Assembly: GCA_019359325.1 (NCBI GenBank)
Contig: JAHHHN010000008.1
Location: 62,001 to 126,000 of the forward strand
Origin: Mojavia pulchra JT2-VF2
Lineage (GTDB): Bacteria > Cyanobacteriota > Cyanobacteriia > Cyanobacteriales > Nostocaceae
Reading direction: 5' to 3'
Length of the DNA stretch: 64,000 nt
Below are positions 3,097 through 62,229 of this stretch, piece after piece; the first letter of the stretch is position 1; the number at the start of each line of letters is the position of its first letter. The notes under the pieces are model-generated. The model was not told the origin of the DNA and searched no databases. It saw only the letters and a program-made list of their open reading frames with translations. Made by a program: the position numbers and the translations under genes.

Positions 3097-6000
3097 CTAA
3101 CTTGATTTACCTGTAATTGTAAATGCTGCCCAGTAGTAAGGGTGGGAGAAAAGTTTTTGTTCAGGCGTAATTTTACTAGTTCTATACATTTGCGTTGCTA
3201 TATGCGTCCTAACTTTTAAATCATCATAATGTAAATTATTTAATAAATTCTCATACCATTTAGTCAGTTCAATTGCAGTTATTTCCTTCAACCATGTTGT
3301 GACTTCAGTTAATGTAGTTGCTGCCGATTTATCTGGCTGTAACCGTCGATAAAATTCTATGATTACTAAGTCATTGGCAAACGATTCTACAGTCCAAAGA
3401 GTATTTATAACCAGAGGAACTCCACCACTTAGAAAAGCATAAGCTAAATTTACATATTCGTTGGTGATAATGGGATTGCTAATAGTTGTAGTTTCACAAG
3501 CCGATAATGTAACCAGGTTGTAACTGACTAAAGTTTGTTGGCAGATTTCTTCTAAAGTAAGTTTGTCGTTATCGGTTAAAGCCAATTCTGATTTCTTCGG
3601 CTCGCTGAAATTGTTAATGATATGCCCCGTAAAGTGAAATACATTGTAATCATCAGTTAAGGCATTTAGGACATTATTCTTATTAGCTTGTTCTCCCTGA
3701 ATACGTTGGCAATTAGCAAACATTTGGCTAACAATTTCAGATTGCAGTTTGGCAAATTTCAGTGGAGGATAACCTGTGGTGTTGGGATGCTCCACACTAA
3801 GTAAGAATTGATTTTGTTTATGCCATGCTGGTTCAGCTTTTGCTGTTAATCCTATTTGGATACTTGGCAGATAAGTAATGGTGCAATTAGCCTCGACAGT
3901 TGGCCAATCTTCTGGAATAGGGGAACAGAGATGAAAAAGCGCATGGAGAGGCAATCTGTGCAAGTCGCGGTGGGGCATTAAAATCAATTGAGTAATGCCT
4001 TCGAGTTCCTGAACGATTGTGGAAATGTTGAGGATATTTTTTAGCTGTAACAGCCTTGCTTCCATATCCATGTACCAGGAATGGTTGCTTTGATGCTGTT
4101 TGTCTTGAGATTGGCTGCTATATTCCTGGTATTGTTGATTCCATTCTTGTAGCCAATCTTCAAAGGCCATCAAACGTCTGACTGCTTCAGGTAGGCGCAA
4201 TTCATGCGAACCTATAGGAGCTTCTCCTAAGTGAATCGCCCCCTCATCTTGTATAGGTGTAAACAAGAGGATGGGCGAAGGAGCTTCGTCTTTAAGAATA
4301 AAGGTTTGTAGGGAAGTTGGGCTAATGTGCCAATAAATAATTGCTGTTTTAGGATTGAGCAACTGCTGAATTGCAGAATAGTTTGGTGCGTAAGTTTGCT
4401 CCTCCCAACCCAAAAGTAGCCAGTTTAAACAAGCATTTTTACCTTGTTCGGCAATTTCCCAAGCTTCCACCAAGTCACCGTAGTTTACAGCTAAATCAAC
4501 AGCTAATTGCCCAAATCCTGCAAATTTCAGGGCTAGCTGTCTTTTACTATCATCAGGGCGAGTTGATTCACTCAGCAATTGTTGAAGTAAATCGCTACCG
4601 TATTGTTGTAATTCTTGTGCTTGTTCTGTTTCGCCCAAACCTACAAGTGTTTTGATTAGAGATTGCAATACTTCTAGATGTAACTGAGGAAAATCTTCGC
4701 TGGTGAGCGTTAATAGTGCCTGATTGTACTCATCTACAGCTTTTTGCCAATGACTGCGGGGTGTGGAATTATTCTTACCTTGTTCATAATAAGTATTAGC
4801 GATCGCCAGATGTAATCTGCCCCATCCTTCAGGGTGAGTGTCCGGGCGAACGTATTTCAAGCCTTCCTCGTAGCTAGCTAATTTTCCTTCATAGCCGCCT
4901 TGCTTTAATGCTTGATTTGTAGATGTAATGCCAGTAAACAAACTTAACAAAGTCTCAGGATGAATTAAACTGCCAGCAGCAGTACCGCGACCAATCCAAG
5001 CTTCCCAATAGTCAAGTTTAATTTGCAAAGCACTGTCATAAGAGGCGATCGCTTCTGCAAACCGCCCTAAATGAAACAGCGCGATCGCCTGGTTGTACCA
5101 AGCTAAGTGGAAATCGGGTTTAATTGCTATAGCTTTACGGTAAGAAGTAATAGCTTCTTCACGGCGTCCTAAGTTATCCAACGCCACACCGCGGTTATAC
5201 CAAGCTAAGTAAAAGTCGGCTTGAATTGAGAGTGCTTTATCCCAAGAGGTGATTGCTTCTGACCAACGTTTTAAATTAAATAGCACTACACCCCGATCAA
5301 TCCAGACTTCATGATAGTCGGGTTGAATTTCAAGAGCTTGATCGTAAGATGCGATCGCATCTTCATGTTGCTCGCCCACAGCCAAAGCTATACCTCGGTA
5401 ATACCAGTTTTCCTGATCTTCTGGTTGCAGAAGTAGGGCTTGGTCGTAACTGGAAATTGCTTCCCATAATCGCCCTAACTTCAGCAGTGCTAAACCTCGG
5501 CTAGACCAAGCATCTGCGAAATCGGGTTTGATTTCAATGACGTGTTCAAAAGAAGCGATCGCTTGATCAAATTCTCCTAATTCACCTAAAGTTCCACCTT
5601 TGTTGTACCAAGCTTTGTAGAAATCGGGTTTCAATTCTATGGCTTTGTCGTATGAGGCGACAGCTTCTACAAAATGTTCTAAATGAAATAATGTCAAGCC
5701 TCGATTAAACCAGTATTCATAAAAATTAGGTTTTAGTTCTATGGCTTGGTCGTAGGATGCGATCGCTCCTAATAAATCTCCAGTTTTGGCTTGCTGAAGA
5801 CCTTGGTAAAACCATGCTTGCGCCCGATCAATTTTTGGCTCAGTAACTAATTGCGAATTCTTCTTACGAATTGCCAGTTCGGAAGCAAGTTCTTGGACTA
5901 GGTTGGTACTCTGATCTAACCTCACCAACAACTCATCAAAAGCGTCTGCAACTTTTGGCTCTAATTTCGCCAAAGATTTATCCCACTTCTGTTCTTCTAA

Positions 6001-22283: not shown

Positions 22284-22511
22284 CGAACCACAAAGGACGC
22301 AAAGAGCGCGAAGATAAGACTAGGAAAAAGAGAGAAGTTTGTTTAAGAAGGTTTAGCCTCCTTCTCTGTGTCACGCCAGTTGCTACAACGCGGCGGCACT
22401 TCCTACCCTGCGGGAAGCCGCTTCGCGTCTACAAGTCGGCAAAGCCGCCCAACGGAGTGCCTTGGGAACCCGCGCAACGCACTGGCTCCTCTGTGCCTCT
22501 GCGGTTCGTTA
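22284..22511. repeat. Repeat-flanked non-coding segment related to the GxxExxY element
   Basis: The left arm 22284-22315 begins CGAACCACAAAGGACGCAAAG and the right arm 22487-22510 reads as AACGAACCGCAGAGGCACAGAGG on the minus strand. The arms resemble the ends of the 24803-25275 element, but no GxxExxY gene lies between. The interior (about 22370-22470) is a GC-rich repeat with CCCTGCGGGAAGCCGCTTCGCG. This accounts for most of the 372-bp gap 22137-22508. Confidence 0.5.
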
Positions 22512-24802: not shown

Positions 24803-25275
24803 CGAACCGCGAAGGGCGCGAAGTACGCGAAGGAAGATTAAGAAGAGAGGATAATACGTTTTATGCCGTCTTTGAGGAGGGGGACGTTAAAGTTAATGAG
24901 AAGGCCTAAAGGGTAGTTAGTCATTTTAAGGTAGGAGATAACTTGAGCCTCATGAATGGGAGTTAAATTTTGAACAGCTTTTAACTCCACAATTAGAGAG
25001 TCTCCAACCAAAAAATCTAATTTGCCTTCACCTACTGGACGACCTTTGTAGTGTACTTTTACTGGATGCTCAAACTTATAAGGTATCCCCCGCATCAGAA
25101 ATTCTTCTCTTAACGCCTTGTGATATACCTCCTCCAAAAACCCAGATCCTAATACCCTATGCACTTCAATAGCCGCCCCAATCACTTCGTAAGCTAAGTT
25201 TTCTACCCTATCGCTTAGTTGTCTCATCTTACCTTCCTCCTCTTCCTTTGTGTACTTTGCGTTCTTTGCGGTTCG
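24803..25275. mobile_element. Compact cassette: GxxExxY gene between 35-bp inverted repeats
   Basis: Bases 24803-24837 and 25241-25275 are inverted copies of one 35-bp sequence (starting CGAACCGC and ending AAGTAC..AAGGAAGA). They match at 29 of 35 positions, and every difference is G versus A. The left repeat abuts the stop codon of the GxxExxY gene and the right one ends 14 bases before its start. Repeat arms plus gene total 473 bp. A related gene-less pair lies at 22284-22511. Mobility is inferred from this structure; no transposase is present and no target duplication was established. Confidence 0.55.
24838..25227 (-). CDS. GxxExxY protein
   Basis: A 129-residue protein. The start is ATG 25227, with GGAGGAAGG upstream. 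The name-giving motif is GSGFLEEVYHKAL. Then come GEGKLDFLVGDSLIVELKAV, which has a D...ExK pattern reminiscent of PD-(D/E)xK nucleases, and YLKMTNYPLGLLINFNV. The family is widespread, small and often scattered in repeats; its function is not known. Here it sits tightly between inverted repeats, as described for the surrounding cassette. Confidence 0.9.
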   Translation of the reverse strand: MRQLSDRVENLAYEVIGAAIEVHRVLGSGFLEEVYHKALREEFLMRGIPYKFEHPVKVHYKGRPVGEGKLDFLVGDSLIVELKAVQNLTPIHEAQVISYLKMTNYPLGLLINFNVPLLKDGIKRIILSS

Positions 25276-25344: not shown

Positions 25345-28300
25345 ATGACCGCAACCATACTTAATCTCCCTAGTCTTTACGATCCCTTCTCCACAGAAGC
25401 CAAGTGGCAAAAATTCTGGGAACAGAACCAAGTTTACAAAGCCCACCCCAACAAAGGTGGCGAACCCTACTGTGTTGTAATCCCGCCGCCGAATGTCACC
25501 GGCAGTTTGCACATGGGTCACGCTTTTGAAAGTGCGTTGATTGATGTTCTGGTGCGCTACCACCGGATGCAGGGGCGTAATACTTTGTGGCTACCTGGAA
25601 CTGACCACGCTAGCATCGCTGTCCATACGATGCTGGAAAAGCAACTCAAAACTGAGGGTAAAACTCGCTATGAGTTGGGGCGTGATCAATTCTTAGAACG
25701 CGCCAAGCAGTGGAAGGCAGAATCTGGCGGGGCGATTGTGAATCAACTACGACGCTTAGGCGTTTCGGTAGACTGGTCGCGGGAAAGGTTTACCCTGGAT
25801 GAGGGTTTATCTAAAGCTGTGGTCGAAGCATTTACTCGCATGTATGAGGAAGGCTTAATTTATCGCGGTGAGTATTTAGTTAACTGGTGTCCAGCTACCC
25901 AGTCGGCGGTGTCTGATGTAGAGGTGGAAAATCAAGAGGTAAACGGTAATCTCTGGCACTTCCGCTATCCTCTTACGGATGGTTCTGGTTATGTGGAGGT
26001 GGCGACGACTCGACCAGAAACCATGCTGGGTGATACTGGAGTGGCGGTTAATCCCGATGATGACAGATATAAGCACTTAATTGGGAAGACACTAACTCTA
26101 CCAATTCTGAATCGAGAAATTCCAATCATTGGTGATGAGTTCGTTGATCCAACATTTGGGACGGGCTGCGTTAAGGTAACTCCAGCCCATGACCCGAATG
26201 ACTTTGAAATGGGTCAGCGTCACAATTTGCCGTTTATCAACATCCTCAATAAGGACGGTACTCTCAACGCCAATACTGGGGAGTTTCAAGGACAAGACCG
26301 CTTTGTTGCGAGAAAAAATGTCGTTTCTCGCCTCGAAGCAGATGGCTTTTTGGTGAAGATAGAAGATTATAAGCATACCGTTCCTTATAGCGATCGCGGC
26401 AAAGTCCCCATTGAACCTCTGCTTTCTACTCAATGGTTTGTCAAAATTCGCCCATTAGCTGACAAGTCTTTAGAATTTCTTGACCAGAAAAATTCCCCAG
26501 AGTTTGTTCCTCAACGTTGGACTAAGGTTTATCGTGATTGGCTAGTCAAGCTGAAAGATTGGTGTATCTCTCGCCAACTATGGTGGGGACATCAAATCCC
26601 AGCTTGGTACGCTGTGAGTGAAACGGACGGGCAAATCACCGATAACACTCCGTTTGTGGTCGCCAAATCAACAGATGAAGCTTGGGAAAAAGCTAAAGCA
26701 CAATTTGGCGAAAATGTCCAGCTTGAACAAGACCCAGATGTGTTGGATACCTGGTTTTCTTCAGGACTTTGGCCGTTTTCAACTTTAGGCTGGCCAGAAC
26801 AAACTCAGGATTTAGCAACTTACTATCCCACCACGACTCTAGTAACGGGCTTTGACATTATCTTCTTCTGGGTTGCCAGAATGACGATGATGGGTGGGCA
26901 CTTTACTGGGCAAATGCCATTTAAGGATGTTTACATCCACGGGTTAGTGCTGGATGAGAAAGGTCAGAAGATGTCTAAGACCAAAGGTAACGGCATTGAC
27001 CCGCTATTATTAATTGACAAATATGGTACTGATGCTCTGCGCTACACCTTAATTAGGGAAGTGGCTGGCGCGGGTCAAGATATCCGGTTGGAGTACGATC
27101 GCAAAAAAGATGAATCATCATCGGTGGAAGCTTCCCGCAACTTTGCTAACAAGTTGTGGAATGCAGCCCGGTTTGTAATGATGAATTTGGATGGACAAAC
27201 CCCAGCCCAACTAGGTCAACCACTCAGTACTGAACTTAGCGATCGCTGGCTGTTATCCCGCTACCATCAAGTTATTAAGCAAACTACTAATTACATCGAT
27301 AACTACGGGCTAGGGGAAGCCGCGAAAGGACTGTACGAATTTATTTGGGGCGATTTCTGCGATTGGTATATTGAACTGGTGAAGTCTCGCCTCCAACAAG
27401 GTGCAGATCCCACATCGCGGCGGGTAGCCCAGCAAACCCTCGCCTATGTGCTAGAAGGGATTTTAAAATTACTTCATCCCTTTATGCCTCACATTACTGA
27501 GGAGATTTGGCAAACTCTTACCCAACAACCAGCAGATTCAACCGAAACTTTATCGTTACAACCTTATCCCCAAGTTGATACCAACTTGATCAATACGGAA
27601 CTTGAGGTACAATTTGAAATGCTGATTGGCACTATCCGCACTATTCGCAATTTACGTGCCGAGGCGGATATTAAACCAGGGGCGAAAGTGACTGTCAATT
27701 TGCAAAGTGAAAGCCCTAAAGAACGGCAAATCCTGACTGCTGGACAAGCTTATATTAAAGATTTGGCTAAGGTGGAGACTTTAACCATTGCTGACAAGTC
27801 TAATAATCAAACGGTTACACCGAAAAAACCTCTGAGGGGTTTAAAAACAATAGGTTTGATTATTGTGGGAATTGTCTTTACTAGGTTGGCTTACGCTGTT
27901 GGGAATGCAATTGATGATGTTCCTCTATTTGGAACTTTCTTTGAAATAGTTGGTCTTGTTTACACAACTTGGTTTGCTCTCCGCTATTTACTGTCGGCTC
28001 AGGCTAGACAAAGGTTTTGGGCAAATTTGTTCCAGCCAAGGACTGACAAGCATCTACCACAGACAGAACCACAACAACCCCAGGAACCAGAAAACGCGAT
28101 CGCAGGTGTTGTGGGTACTGTACAAGTGGTAATTCCTCTCAAGGGTGTAGTAGATATCGAAGCGGTACGTGCCAAACTAGAAAAGAGTCTCAGCAAAGCC
28201 GAAGCAGAAGTCCAATCCCTAAGTTCCAGGTTAAGCAACTCCAATTTTGTGGATAAAGCTCCCAAAGATGTGGTACAGGGTGCGCGAGATGCTTTAGCAG

Positions 28301-28353
28301 AGGCTGAAAAACAAGCAGAAATTTTGCGCGATCGCCTGCGTGGTTTAGCATAG
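25345..28353 (+). CDS. valS: Valyl-tRNA synthetase with CAAD membrane-anchor domain
   Basis: Charges tRNA-Val. It has 1002 residues from ATG 25345. Class I motifs are HMGH at 56-59 and KMSKT near 542. The editing domain ([19 protein letters not shown]) and the [17 protein letters not shown] segment are intact. The anticodon-binding domain spans about 640-800. At about 825-900 there is an inserted hydrophobic segment ([20 protein letters not shown] and [18 protein letters not shown]). This matches the cyanobacterial aminoacyl-tRNA-synthetase appended domain (CAAD), known to tether Anabaena synthetases to thylakoids. The usual C-terminal coiled coil (930-1002) follows. Confidence 0.95.
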
Positions 28354-60600: not shown

Positions 60601-62229
60601 ATGCTTAAAGTCCTCCCCAAACAAACTGCCTCCATGCACACCCGCGATGGTGTACGCCTAGATGCAGATATCTATCGCCCGGATGCTGAAGGTGAGTTTC
60701 CGGTATTATTAATGCGACAACCTTATGGTAGAGCGATCGCATCTACTGTTGTTTATGCCCATCCTACTTGGTATGCTGCCCACGGCTACATTGTAGTAAT
60801 TCAAGATGTCCGAGGGCGAGGCACTTCTGAGGGAGAATTTAAATTATTTAGTCACGAAATTGCAGATGGTGAAGACTCAGTAAATTGGGCAGCAAACATT
60901 CCTGGTAGTAATGGCAAAGTCGGAATGTATGGCTTTTCCTATCAAGGAATGACTCAGCTATATGCAGCCGCTAATAAACCAGCAGCCTTAAAAACAATTT
61001 GCCCCGCCATGATTGGCTATGATTTATATGCTGATTGGGCTTATGAAGGAGGCACATTCTGTTTACAATCTAACCTTGCTTGGGCGATTCAATTAGCTAC
61101 AGAAACCGCCCGATTAAGAGGAGATAAAACAGCGCATCAAGCATTATTTACGGCTTCTCGCAATTTGTCTTTAACTAATCCAGAAATTCTCCAACATCTT
61201 GCCCCTGAGTCGTTTTATCATGAGTGGCTAGCAAATTCCCAACCAGATGCAGCTTACTGGGAAGAACTTTCGCCCAAACGCTACTTGCAAACTGTTGACT
61301 TGCCCATGTTCCACATTGGCGGATGGTTTGATACCTATTTGCGAGGAACTCTGCATTTATATAAAGATATAGCAGGCCGTAGCCATACACCTCAACACCT
61401 GTTAGTCGGGCCTTGGGCACATTTACCTTGGGGTCGTAAAGTTGGCGCAGTTGACTTCGGCCCAAAAGCCGCTAGTCCTGTAGACAAAATGCAAGTTCGT
61501 TGGTTTGACCAGTTTCTCAAAGATGTAGATACAGGGTTATTACATGAATCTCCCGTTTGCCTATTTGAAATGGGAACCAATATTTGGCGGACTTTCCCCA
61601 ATTTCCCTACACCAATGTACAAAATTTACTTTTTGTCAACCACCGGACTAGCCAGCATCCGCGAAGACTCTGGAACCCTAAACCCCAGTCCCCAGCCCCC
61701 AGTCCCTAATACCTTCGACGTATTAGTTCACGATCCTTGGCGACCAGTTCCAGCTTTGGGTGGTCATGCAGCGCTTCTGGCTGGTATGTTTGAGCGATCG
61801 CACCTTGATTCGCGTTCAGATGTATTAACTTACACTAGCGAAACGCTAGCCGCAGACTTACATTTAGCGGGGGATGTGGTTGTAGAAATTTGGTGCAGCG
61901 CTGATCAACCTAGTTATGATTTGTGTGCAGTGCTTTCAGAAGTACATCCTGATGGACAAGCGTATAATTTGACTCAGGGTTATGTTCATTGTCAAGCTGG
62001 GGTGAATCCCTTACCTACAAAAATTCAATTGCAAGCGACTTGTGCGCGAATTGCCAAGGGTAATGCTTTACGTCTCAGTTTGAGTGCGGCTTGTTTTCCG
62101 GCCTACGCTATGAACTCTGGAACTGGTGCGGTAATTAGTAGTGAAAGTTTATTGGATGCTCAAGTTATCACTTTAACAGTGAGTTGTGGAGGCGAAGCTA
62201 TTTCGCAAGTGTTGTTACCTGTGATTTGA
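60601..62229 (+). CDS. CocE/NonD-family hydrolase
   Basis: A 542-residue serine hydrolase of the X-Pro-peptidase S15/CocE group. ATG 60601. The nucleophile is Ser 113 in GFSYQG; the acid and His are in the C-terminal parts (GGWFDTYLRG and VGPWAHLPWG). The C-terminal jelly-roll begins near 370. About residues 360-372 (NPSPQPPVPNT) are encoded by a CCCCAGT-type repeat. Substrates in the family range from cocaine esters to glutaryl-amides and peptides; unknown here. Confidence 0.88.
   Translation: MLKVLPKQTASMHTRDGVRLDADIYRPDAEGEFPVLLMRQPYGRAIASTVVYAHPTWYAAHGYIVVIQDVRGRGTSEGEFKLFSHEIADGEDSVNWAANIPGSNGKVGMYGFSYQGMTQLYAAANKPAALKTICPAMIGYDLYADWAYEGGTFCLQSNLAWAIQLATETARLRGDKTAHQALFTASRNLSLTNPEILQHLAPESFYHEWLANSQPDAAYWEELSPKRYLQTVDLPMFHIGGWFDTYLRGTLHLYKDIAGRSHTPQHLLVGPWAHLPWGRKVGAVDFGPKAASPVDKMQVRWFDQFLKDVDTGLLHESPVCLFEMGTNIWRTFPNFPTPMYKIYFLSTTGLASIREDSGTLNPSPQPPVPNTFDVLVHDPWRPVPALGGHAALLAGMFERSHLDSRSDVLTYTSETLAADLHLAGDVVVEIWCSADQPSYDLCAVLSEVHPDGQAYNLTQGYVHCQAGVNPLPTKIQLQATCARIAKGNALRLSLSAACFPAYAMNSGTGAVISSESLLDAQVITLTVSCGGEAISQVLLPVI
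61682..61708. repeat. CCCCAGT heptamers inside the CocE gene
   Basis: Variants of CCCCAGT occur in tandem in frame, coding for NPSPQPPVPN. They match the non-coding heptamers at 62419-62466. Confidence 0.6.

Follow-up and report, generated by a model that had tools for sequence, protein, structure and literature searches.

The locus analyzed here raises the question of what a small gene of the GxxExxY family does between two inverted copies of one short repeat, and whether gene and repeats belong together. The window is a stretch of 64,000 nucleotides from Mojavia pulchra JT2-VF2 (contig JAHHHN010000008.1, forward-strand positions 62,001 to 126,000), and coordinates are given from its first letter. 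The features of the cassette, together with a nearby single copy of the repeat, are as follows.

24803..24837, plus strand: left (MFS-side) arm; three CRCNRAG units of the GAAG subtype, abutting the stop codon
24838..25227, minus strand: GxxExxY (PDDEXK_3) gene for a putative nuclease of 129 aa; TIGR04256 141 bits, PF13366 138 bits, model pLDDT 94.6
25189..25203, minus strand: codons 9-13 (ENLAY) in the N-terminal helix; residues 9, 12 and 13 predicted to read bases, from a column scan and independent pairs
25132-25134, minus strand: E32 codon, invariant in alignment A1
24979..25017, minus strand: codons 71-83 with the predicted catalytic D71, E81 and K83; D71 and E81 invariant and K83 at least 90% conserved in alignment A1
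24943-24945, minus strand: Q95 codon, invariant in alignment A1
25241..25275, minus strand: right (valS-side) arm; three CRCNRAG units of the AAAG subtype, 13 bases before the ATG
22286..22313, plus strand: solo repeat copy with no gene attached; 2 mismatches, 0 expected by chance

The two arms are inverted with respect to each other and identical at 29 of 35 positions, each of the six mismatches being a G on one arm and an A on the other. The CRCNRAG units are spaced at ~9 bp within each arm, and a looser inverted repeat spans 24802-24857/25221-25276. The match of the arms is far beyond chance: the flank-to-flank inverted score is 28, compared with a median of 10, a 99th percentile of 16 and a maximum of 22 for sliding controls within the window (n=411). 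The original prediction had described 35-bp inverted ends that differ only by G/A changes and had placed one of them against the stop codon, and both statements are confirmed; the gap that it had put between the other end and the start codon also exists, at 13 bases and not 14. Terminal inverted repeats, a criterion for MITEs and insertion sequences, are present at the cassette. On the side of the right arm, the valS ORF (25345-28353) has a C-terminal extension with hydrophobic stretches, which presumably resembles the membrane-anchoring CAAD domain of cyanobacterial aminoacyl-tRNA synthetases.

The repeat is not confined to the window gene: with ≤3 mismatches allowed, the arm pattern occurs in 55 scattered copies across the 8.19 Mb genome of the strain, the solo repeat at 22286..22313 among them, compared with 0 for the reversed pattern. 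Most of these copies are single arms, and neighboring pairs face inward in 2 cases and outward in 2. The genome holds three GxxExxY genes, each with inverted arms of its own subtype, and the arm type of the third gene occurs in 29 copies versus 1 for the control. Several copies sit within MITE-like elements with unrelated ends; for seven solo repeats (L026, L027, L029, L031, L006, L016 and L025) these ends are CAATACGGTTCAGTTAAG or AGGACTTACGCAA, so part of the repeat spread may be hitch-hiking.

Both ends of GxxExxY loci carry inverted, ~9-bp-phased repeats, in Cyanobacteria and Bacteroidota as well as in some ten further phyla. The cyanobacterial sample comprised about 100 loci out of 244 genomes, with GxxExxY in about a fifth of the genomes, and a further set of 80 related loci came from Cyanobacteria, Neomarinimicrobiota, Planctomycetota, Chloroflexota, Bacteroidota, Nitrospinota, Dadabacteria, Proteobacteria and others. 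In the latter set, inverted arms were visible by eye and by score, with a median inverted score of 28.5 (76 loci) versus 11 for 190 control genes on the same contigs and 9 for the direct orientation. Bacteroidota loci, taken as the 30 best profile hits in 257 genomes, scored 21.5 versus 12 for controls (only 7), and GxxExxY was found in 127 of these 257 genomes, about half. The collection of GxxExxY loci that had been proposed as a check on the original prediction thus yields arms at nearly all core loci.

The arms could be typed at 171 of 179 loci (one side only at some) and fall into five families: A, CRCNRAG units; B, AACGCAGAT units; C, ATCCTG...ATCCTGATTCAGACAA; D, AATCAT...TTCAGAC; and E, AATCCGTG units. 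On the GxxExxY protein tree the five arm types require 4 changes, which is the minimum, and with the unarmed group included 6 changes are required versus a shuffled mean of 30.5. Judged from this tree, the five arm families correspond to five protein clades. Arms were absent at some distant PDDEXK_3 members (L283, L284, L287 and L288), and a few GxxExxY loci are degraded or single-armed, without the full pair. At one locus on a Fusobacteria plasmid (L338), GxxExxY is flanked by GATTTAATCCGTGTACCTAT in direct and not inverted orientation. At another (L058, arms around 3900-4480), the same ~50-bp insert (GAGGCAGTGCGTTGCGGGGGTTCCCCCCCG...) lies at the same place in both arms, which is suggestive of copying from one arm to the other.

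Chance or generic intergenic repeats as the source of the arms were rejected using the control genes and the direct-orientation control. Dispersed repeats are plentiful in intergenic DNA and might flank a gene by accident, or an inverted repeat might arise by chance, but control genes lack inverted flanks, arm families map to clades and, as described below, protein residues map to repeat bases, which leaves this explanation scarcely credible.

The window ORF matches the GxxExxY profile TIGR04256 at 141.2 bits (cut-off 35) and PDDEXK_3 (PF13366), its sole Pfam match, at 138.3 bits (cut-off 22). The best fold match of its model is SSO0001 (4ic1, Z 10.1), which we take to be a Cas4-type protein, and further matches are lambda exonuclease, MGME1, AddAB, Dna2 and several restriction enzymes. 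Across 40 diverse sequences E32, D71, E81 and Q95 are invariant and K83 is nearly so (at least 90%). By its modeled fold the GxxExxY protein is a small PD-(D/E)XK nuclease of the Cas4/lambda-exonuclease kind, and the D...ExK pattern, earlier read as a hint of a nuclease, is supported by this fold and the invariant residues. Activity itself is inferred from the fold and the invariant catalytic residues, none having been measured, and we regard it as very likely.

A column scan against the fifth unit base (GAG or AAG) gave 0.68 bits for residue 13 and 0.67 for residue 12, the next column reaching 0.38; the window protein carries Y13 and A12 at these positions. The same two residues lead the scan when valS-site cassettes are left out, and with the distal arm alone residues 13 and 12 score 0.66 and 0.71. 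Since the association persists with only the distal arm, linkage at the DNA level was rejected as an explanation of the code. In 152 of 157 rows, T12, or S12 together with G13, pairs with GAG and the rest (mostly A12) with AAG, and D9 pairs with C at the fourth unit base (24/26 versus 1/78). Independent pairs, for which the tree was built without the code residues, agreed with the GAG/AAG code in 8-9 of 10 cases and opposed it in 0 (p about 0.008); they were too few for a test of the D9 rule, and the code positions were picked after the data were seen. Residues 9, 12 and 13 all lie on the N-terminal helix (6-26) of the model. There is a strong case that the GxxExxY protein recognizes its own arms, and its suggested role as a repeat partner gains support from the near-universal arms at core loci, the agreement of arm family with clade and the co-variation of N-terminal residues with bases.

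Across the 244 cyanobacterial genomes, repeat A reached at least 3 copies in 23 of 45 gene-positive versus 2 of 199 gene-negative genomes (p 9e-18) and at least 10 copies in 15 gene-positive versus 0 gene-negative genomes; within the window's own family the figures for repeat A were 18/24 versus 0/5 (p 0.004). At least 3 copies of repeat B were present in 22 gene-positive and 0 gene-negative genomes, and of repeat C in 16 and 0. Seven genomes with a C-type gene held 136-602 C repeats versus 5-131 in other C-repeat genomes (p 9e-5), an excess that holds within one genus (p 0.008). For B repeats the trend with a B-type gene was not significant (p 0.07), and some genomes hold B repeats without a B-type gene. 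Genome kinship was controlled in these statistics only through the within-family and within-genus contrasts. C-type repeats were also observed in tandem arrays with periods of 53 and 79 bp (G239:C1:224297-224693 and G143:C2:22503-22923).

Two-armed units without the gene were read in G350, a Nitrospinae genome. Related loci led to 23 genomes, for the most part from outside the cyanobacteria, and five of these genomes carry about 40-90 repeat copies. Neighboring copies ≤500 bp apart in G350 face inward in 22 cases and outward in 0. Nineteen of the 20 units read are gene-less arm-cargo-arm units of 53-268 bp with GCCAC...GTGGC ends; the twentieth is a 453-bp unit with the same ends, and what it encodes is GxxExxY and not a known transposase. 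Both arms share one subtype (AAG or GAG) in 20/20 units, as judged by eye. The units are often centered in other palindromes, and around three of them (L313, L315 and L330) the outer arms resemble other repeat families (CACGGATGAACACGGAT...), in nested-doll fashion.

At the valS site, 72 loci with both arms were compared (subtypes AAAG, GAAG, CAAG and AGAG). Both arms are of one subtype at 66 of these 72 orthologous loci, the window being among the six exceptions. Mapped onto a ValS N-terminus tree, the arm subtype requires about 30 changes, and the two arms change together; this tree is weak, and if only its supported branches are counted, 3 to 8 changes remain necessary for each subtype. Two loci (L072 and L080) have flanks that are 97-100% identical and a gene interior that is 96% identical, and differ in both arms (CGCCAAG in one, CGCAGAG in the other) and in codons 2-16. 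A comparable joint difference of both arms separates L191 and L192, which are of the same genus. The arms of L060 are of unlike subtype (GAAG and AGAG) and its protein has the mixed code EQLTY, possibly as an intermediate. At a second shared site in two strains, flanks that are 97.5 and 98.0% identical enclose cassettes that are 77% alike and in opposite orientation, and the difference ends within about 20 bp of the arms. This is whole-cassette exchange at a fixed place.

Such exchange, like the concerted arms, could be produced by a homing-type drive without transposition, in which the nuclease cuts repeats, only gene conversion between existing copies follows, and new sites arise through hitch-hiking in MITEs and tandem duplication. 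The failure to find empty sites (see below) and an orthologous intergenic site at which two relatives carry unlike repeat subtypes point the same way. Conversion alone, however, would hardly produce repeat copies scattered by the hundred, or gene-less units with varied cargo in unrelated places, and we consider the homing-type explanation quite improbable.

The valS-site cassette has long been present in the family and is mostly vertical; where it has been lost, a solo arm remains at L173 and decayed remnants at L174. Empty sites in relatives had been anticipated; no clean one was found at the valS-site losses or among the other sites compared, no target duplication was seen at the sites compared, and no filled/empty sites of solo repeats were found among 55 Nostocales loci. 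The original prediction was to be refuted if other loci lacked the repeats and empty sites never turned up; the first of these conditions clearly does not hold, and the second stands for now. The search for genomes of the window's genus yielded only its own genome. A 92-98% identical pair was syntenic over only about 33 kb, within which one repeat had arrived inside another MITE and one orthologous intergenic site carried differing repeat subtypes. In G239, at about 3854500 (L310/L311), an A-type repeat lies inside an insertion whose ends are GGCGTTGCTGA...TCAGCAACGCC; the corresponding place in the relative G097 lacks this insertion. No near-identical cassettes were found at different sites of one genome in four multi-copy genomes. 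Carriage by plasmids or phages was rejected, GxxExxY being present on 8 of 72,556 plasmid records and in one haloarchaeal virus, without arms; none was confirmed in IMG/VR by a narrow pattern scan. The description of the cassette as a minimal mobile unit therefore stands in part: gene-less units and replaced cassettes speak for it, whereas the window cassette is old beside valS and lacks a clean empty site.

The age and synteny of the cassettes and their rarity on plasmids would also suit a protein that recognizes the repeats without moving them, a domesticated DNA-binding or hairpin-processing factor (for autoregulation, transcript ends or repeat stability) with the arms as operators and the repeats spread by other elements. 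The recognition code is equally compatible with such a factor, and since some scattered copies ride inside other, unrelated MITE-like elements, the spread need not stem from the GxxExxY protein. It does not readily account for gene-less units that share the two-armed layout and matched arms, for replaced cassettes, for repeat numbers that track gene presence or for invariant catalytic residues, and we consider it unlikely, without dismissing it.

We prefer the reading, with a probability of roughly 60%, that the cassette is a self-recognizing nuclease-repeat unit that binds its own arms, cuts, and is copied by break repair. The 129-aa protein would bind the ~9-bp-phased units of its arms, and in each CRC-NN-AG unit the variable bases would be read by helix residues 9, 12 and 13. 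Its PD-(D/E)XK site, as inferred from the fold and the invariant catalytic residues, would nick or cut DNA at or near an arm, and break repair from another arm-bearing copy may then spread arms and sometimes whole arm-cargo-arm units. The GxxExxY gene would be the autonomous partner and the scattered repeats non-autonomous, as are RAYTs and REPINs. Copying by break repair would explain the paired subtype changes, the fixed-site cassette swaps, and the gene-less units and solo arms in gene-carrying genomes; it is favored over classical transposition because the arms differ in pairs, exchange occurs at a fixed site, plasmids are rare carriers and no target duplication was seen. Counting against a nuclease-repeat unit are the lack of a clean empty site and of a target duplication, the old valS-site cassette, the rarity on plasmids with only one virus, the repeat copies carried inside other MITE-like elements, B repeats without a B-type gene in some genomes, and the choice of the code positions after the data were seen. 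The copying step taken alone, that is, copying driven by the nuclease, is an inference that we hold to be evenly balanced.

The closest known arrangement is that of REPIN/RAYT (TnpA_REP) 'REPtrons', in which a gene is flanked by inverted copies of a genome-scattered repeat, gene-less inverted doublets occur, partner and repeat co-evolve, and inheritance is mostly chromosomal and vertical (PMC3116915, PMC8266576). GxxExxY shares the flanking inverted cognate repeats scattered in the genome, the gene-less doublets, the co-evolution and the chromosomal, vertical habit. The RAYT enzyme, however, is an HUH tyrosine enzyme (Y1 transposase, TnpA_REP) and not a PD-(D/E)XK nuclease, its repeat is a tagged palindrome (e.g. 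GTAG) and not a run of ~9-bp direct CRCNRAG units, and several copies per genome are common for GxxExxY. The GxxExxY unit resembles REP/RAYT in the way it works without belonging to it, enzyme and repeat both being of another kind. Type II MITEs of Anabaena sp. 90, which have no matching transposase in the genome (PMC3542288), are likewise short cyanobacterial elements that carry no gene and have inverted ends; the GxxExxY system differs by a cognate nuclease gene in the same kind of unit, and no target duplications were seen. Proteins of the Cas4, lambda exonuclease and RecB type are the closest folds to the model, but GxxExxY is only 129 aa long, neither a partner helicase nor Cas genes were seen at the locus, and it has flanking cognate repeats and an inferred base-reading N-terminal helix. 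No earlier description of a GxxExxY repeat system was found in open papers, in which GxxExxY mentions are incidental, and the repeat strings had no relevant occurrence in the open literature, preprints and most subscription papers being outside reach. We call the unit categorically new because, to our knowledge and within the same limits of access, no known repeat-partner system could accommodate it.

It is an even question whether the large GxxExxY family as a whole consists of nucleases that propagate themselves (or maintain repeats) through a readable protein-DNA code, in which residues 9, 12 and 13 of one helix determine the bases of the phased units. Each lineage would then have its own repeat population, and the targets would include several widespread and so far unexplained bacterial repeats, of the CACAGAG, AACGCAGAT and ATCCTGATTCAGACAA types. 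If true, this would provide a function for a family that is widespread in the sampled Bacteroidota and cyanobacterial genomes, name the origin of several common bacterial repeat families and constitute a second, unrelated solution to the REP/RAYT mode of genome life. The residue-base code is directly testable at the bench and might yield a small DNA-reading nuclease with a choosable target.
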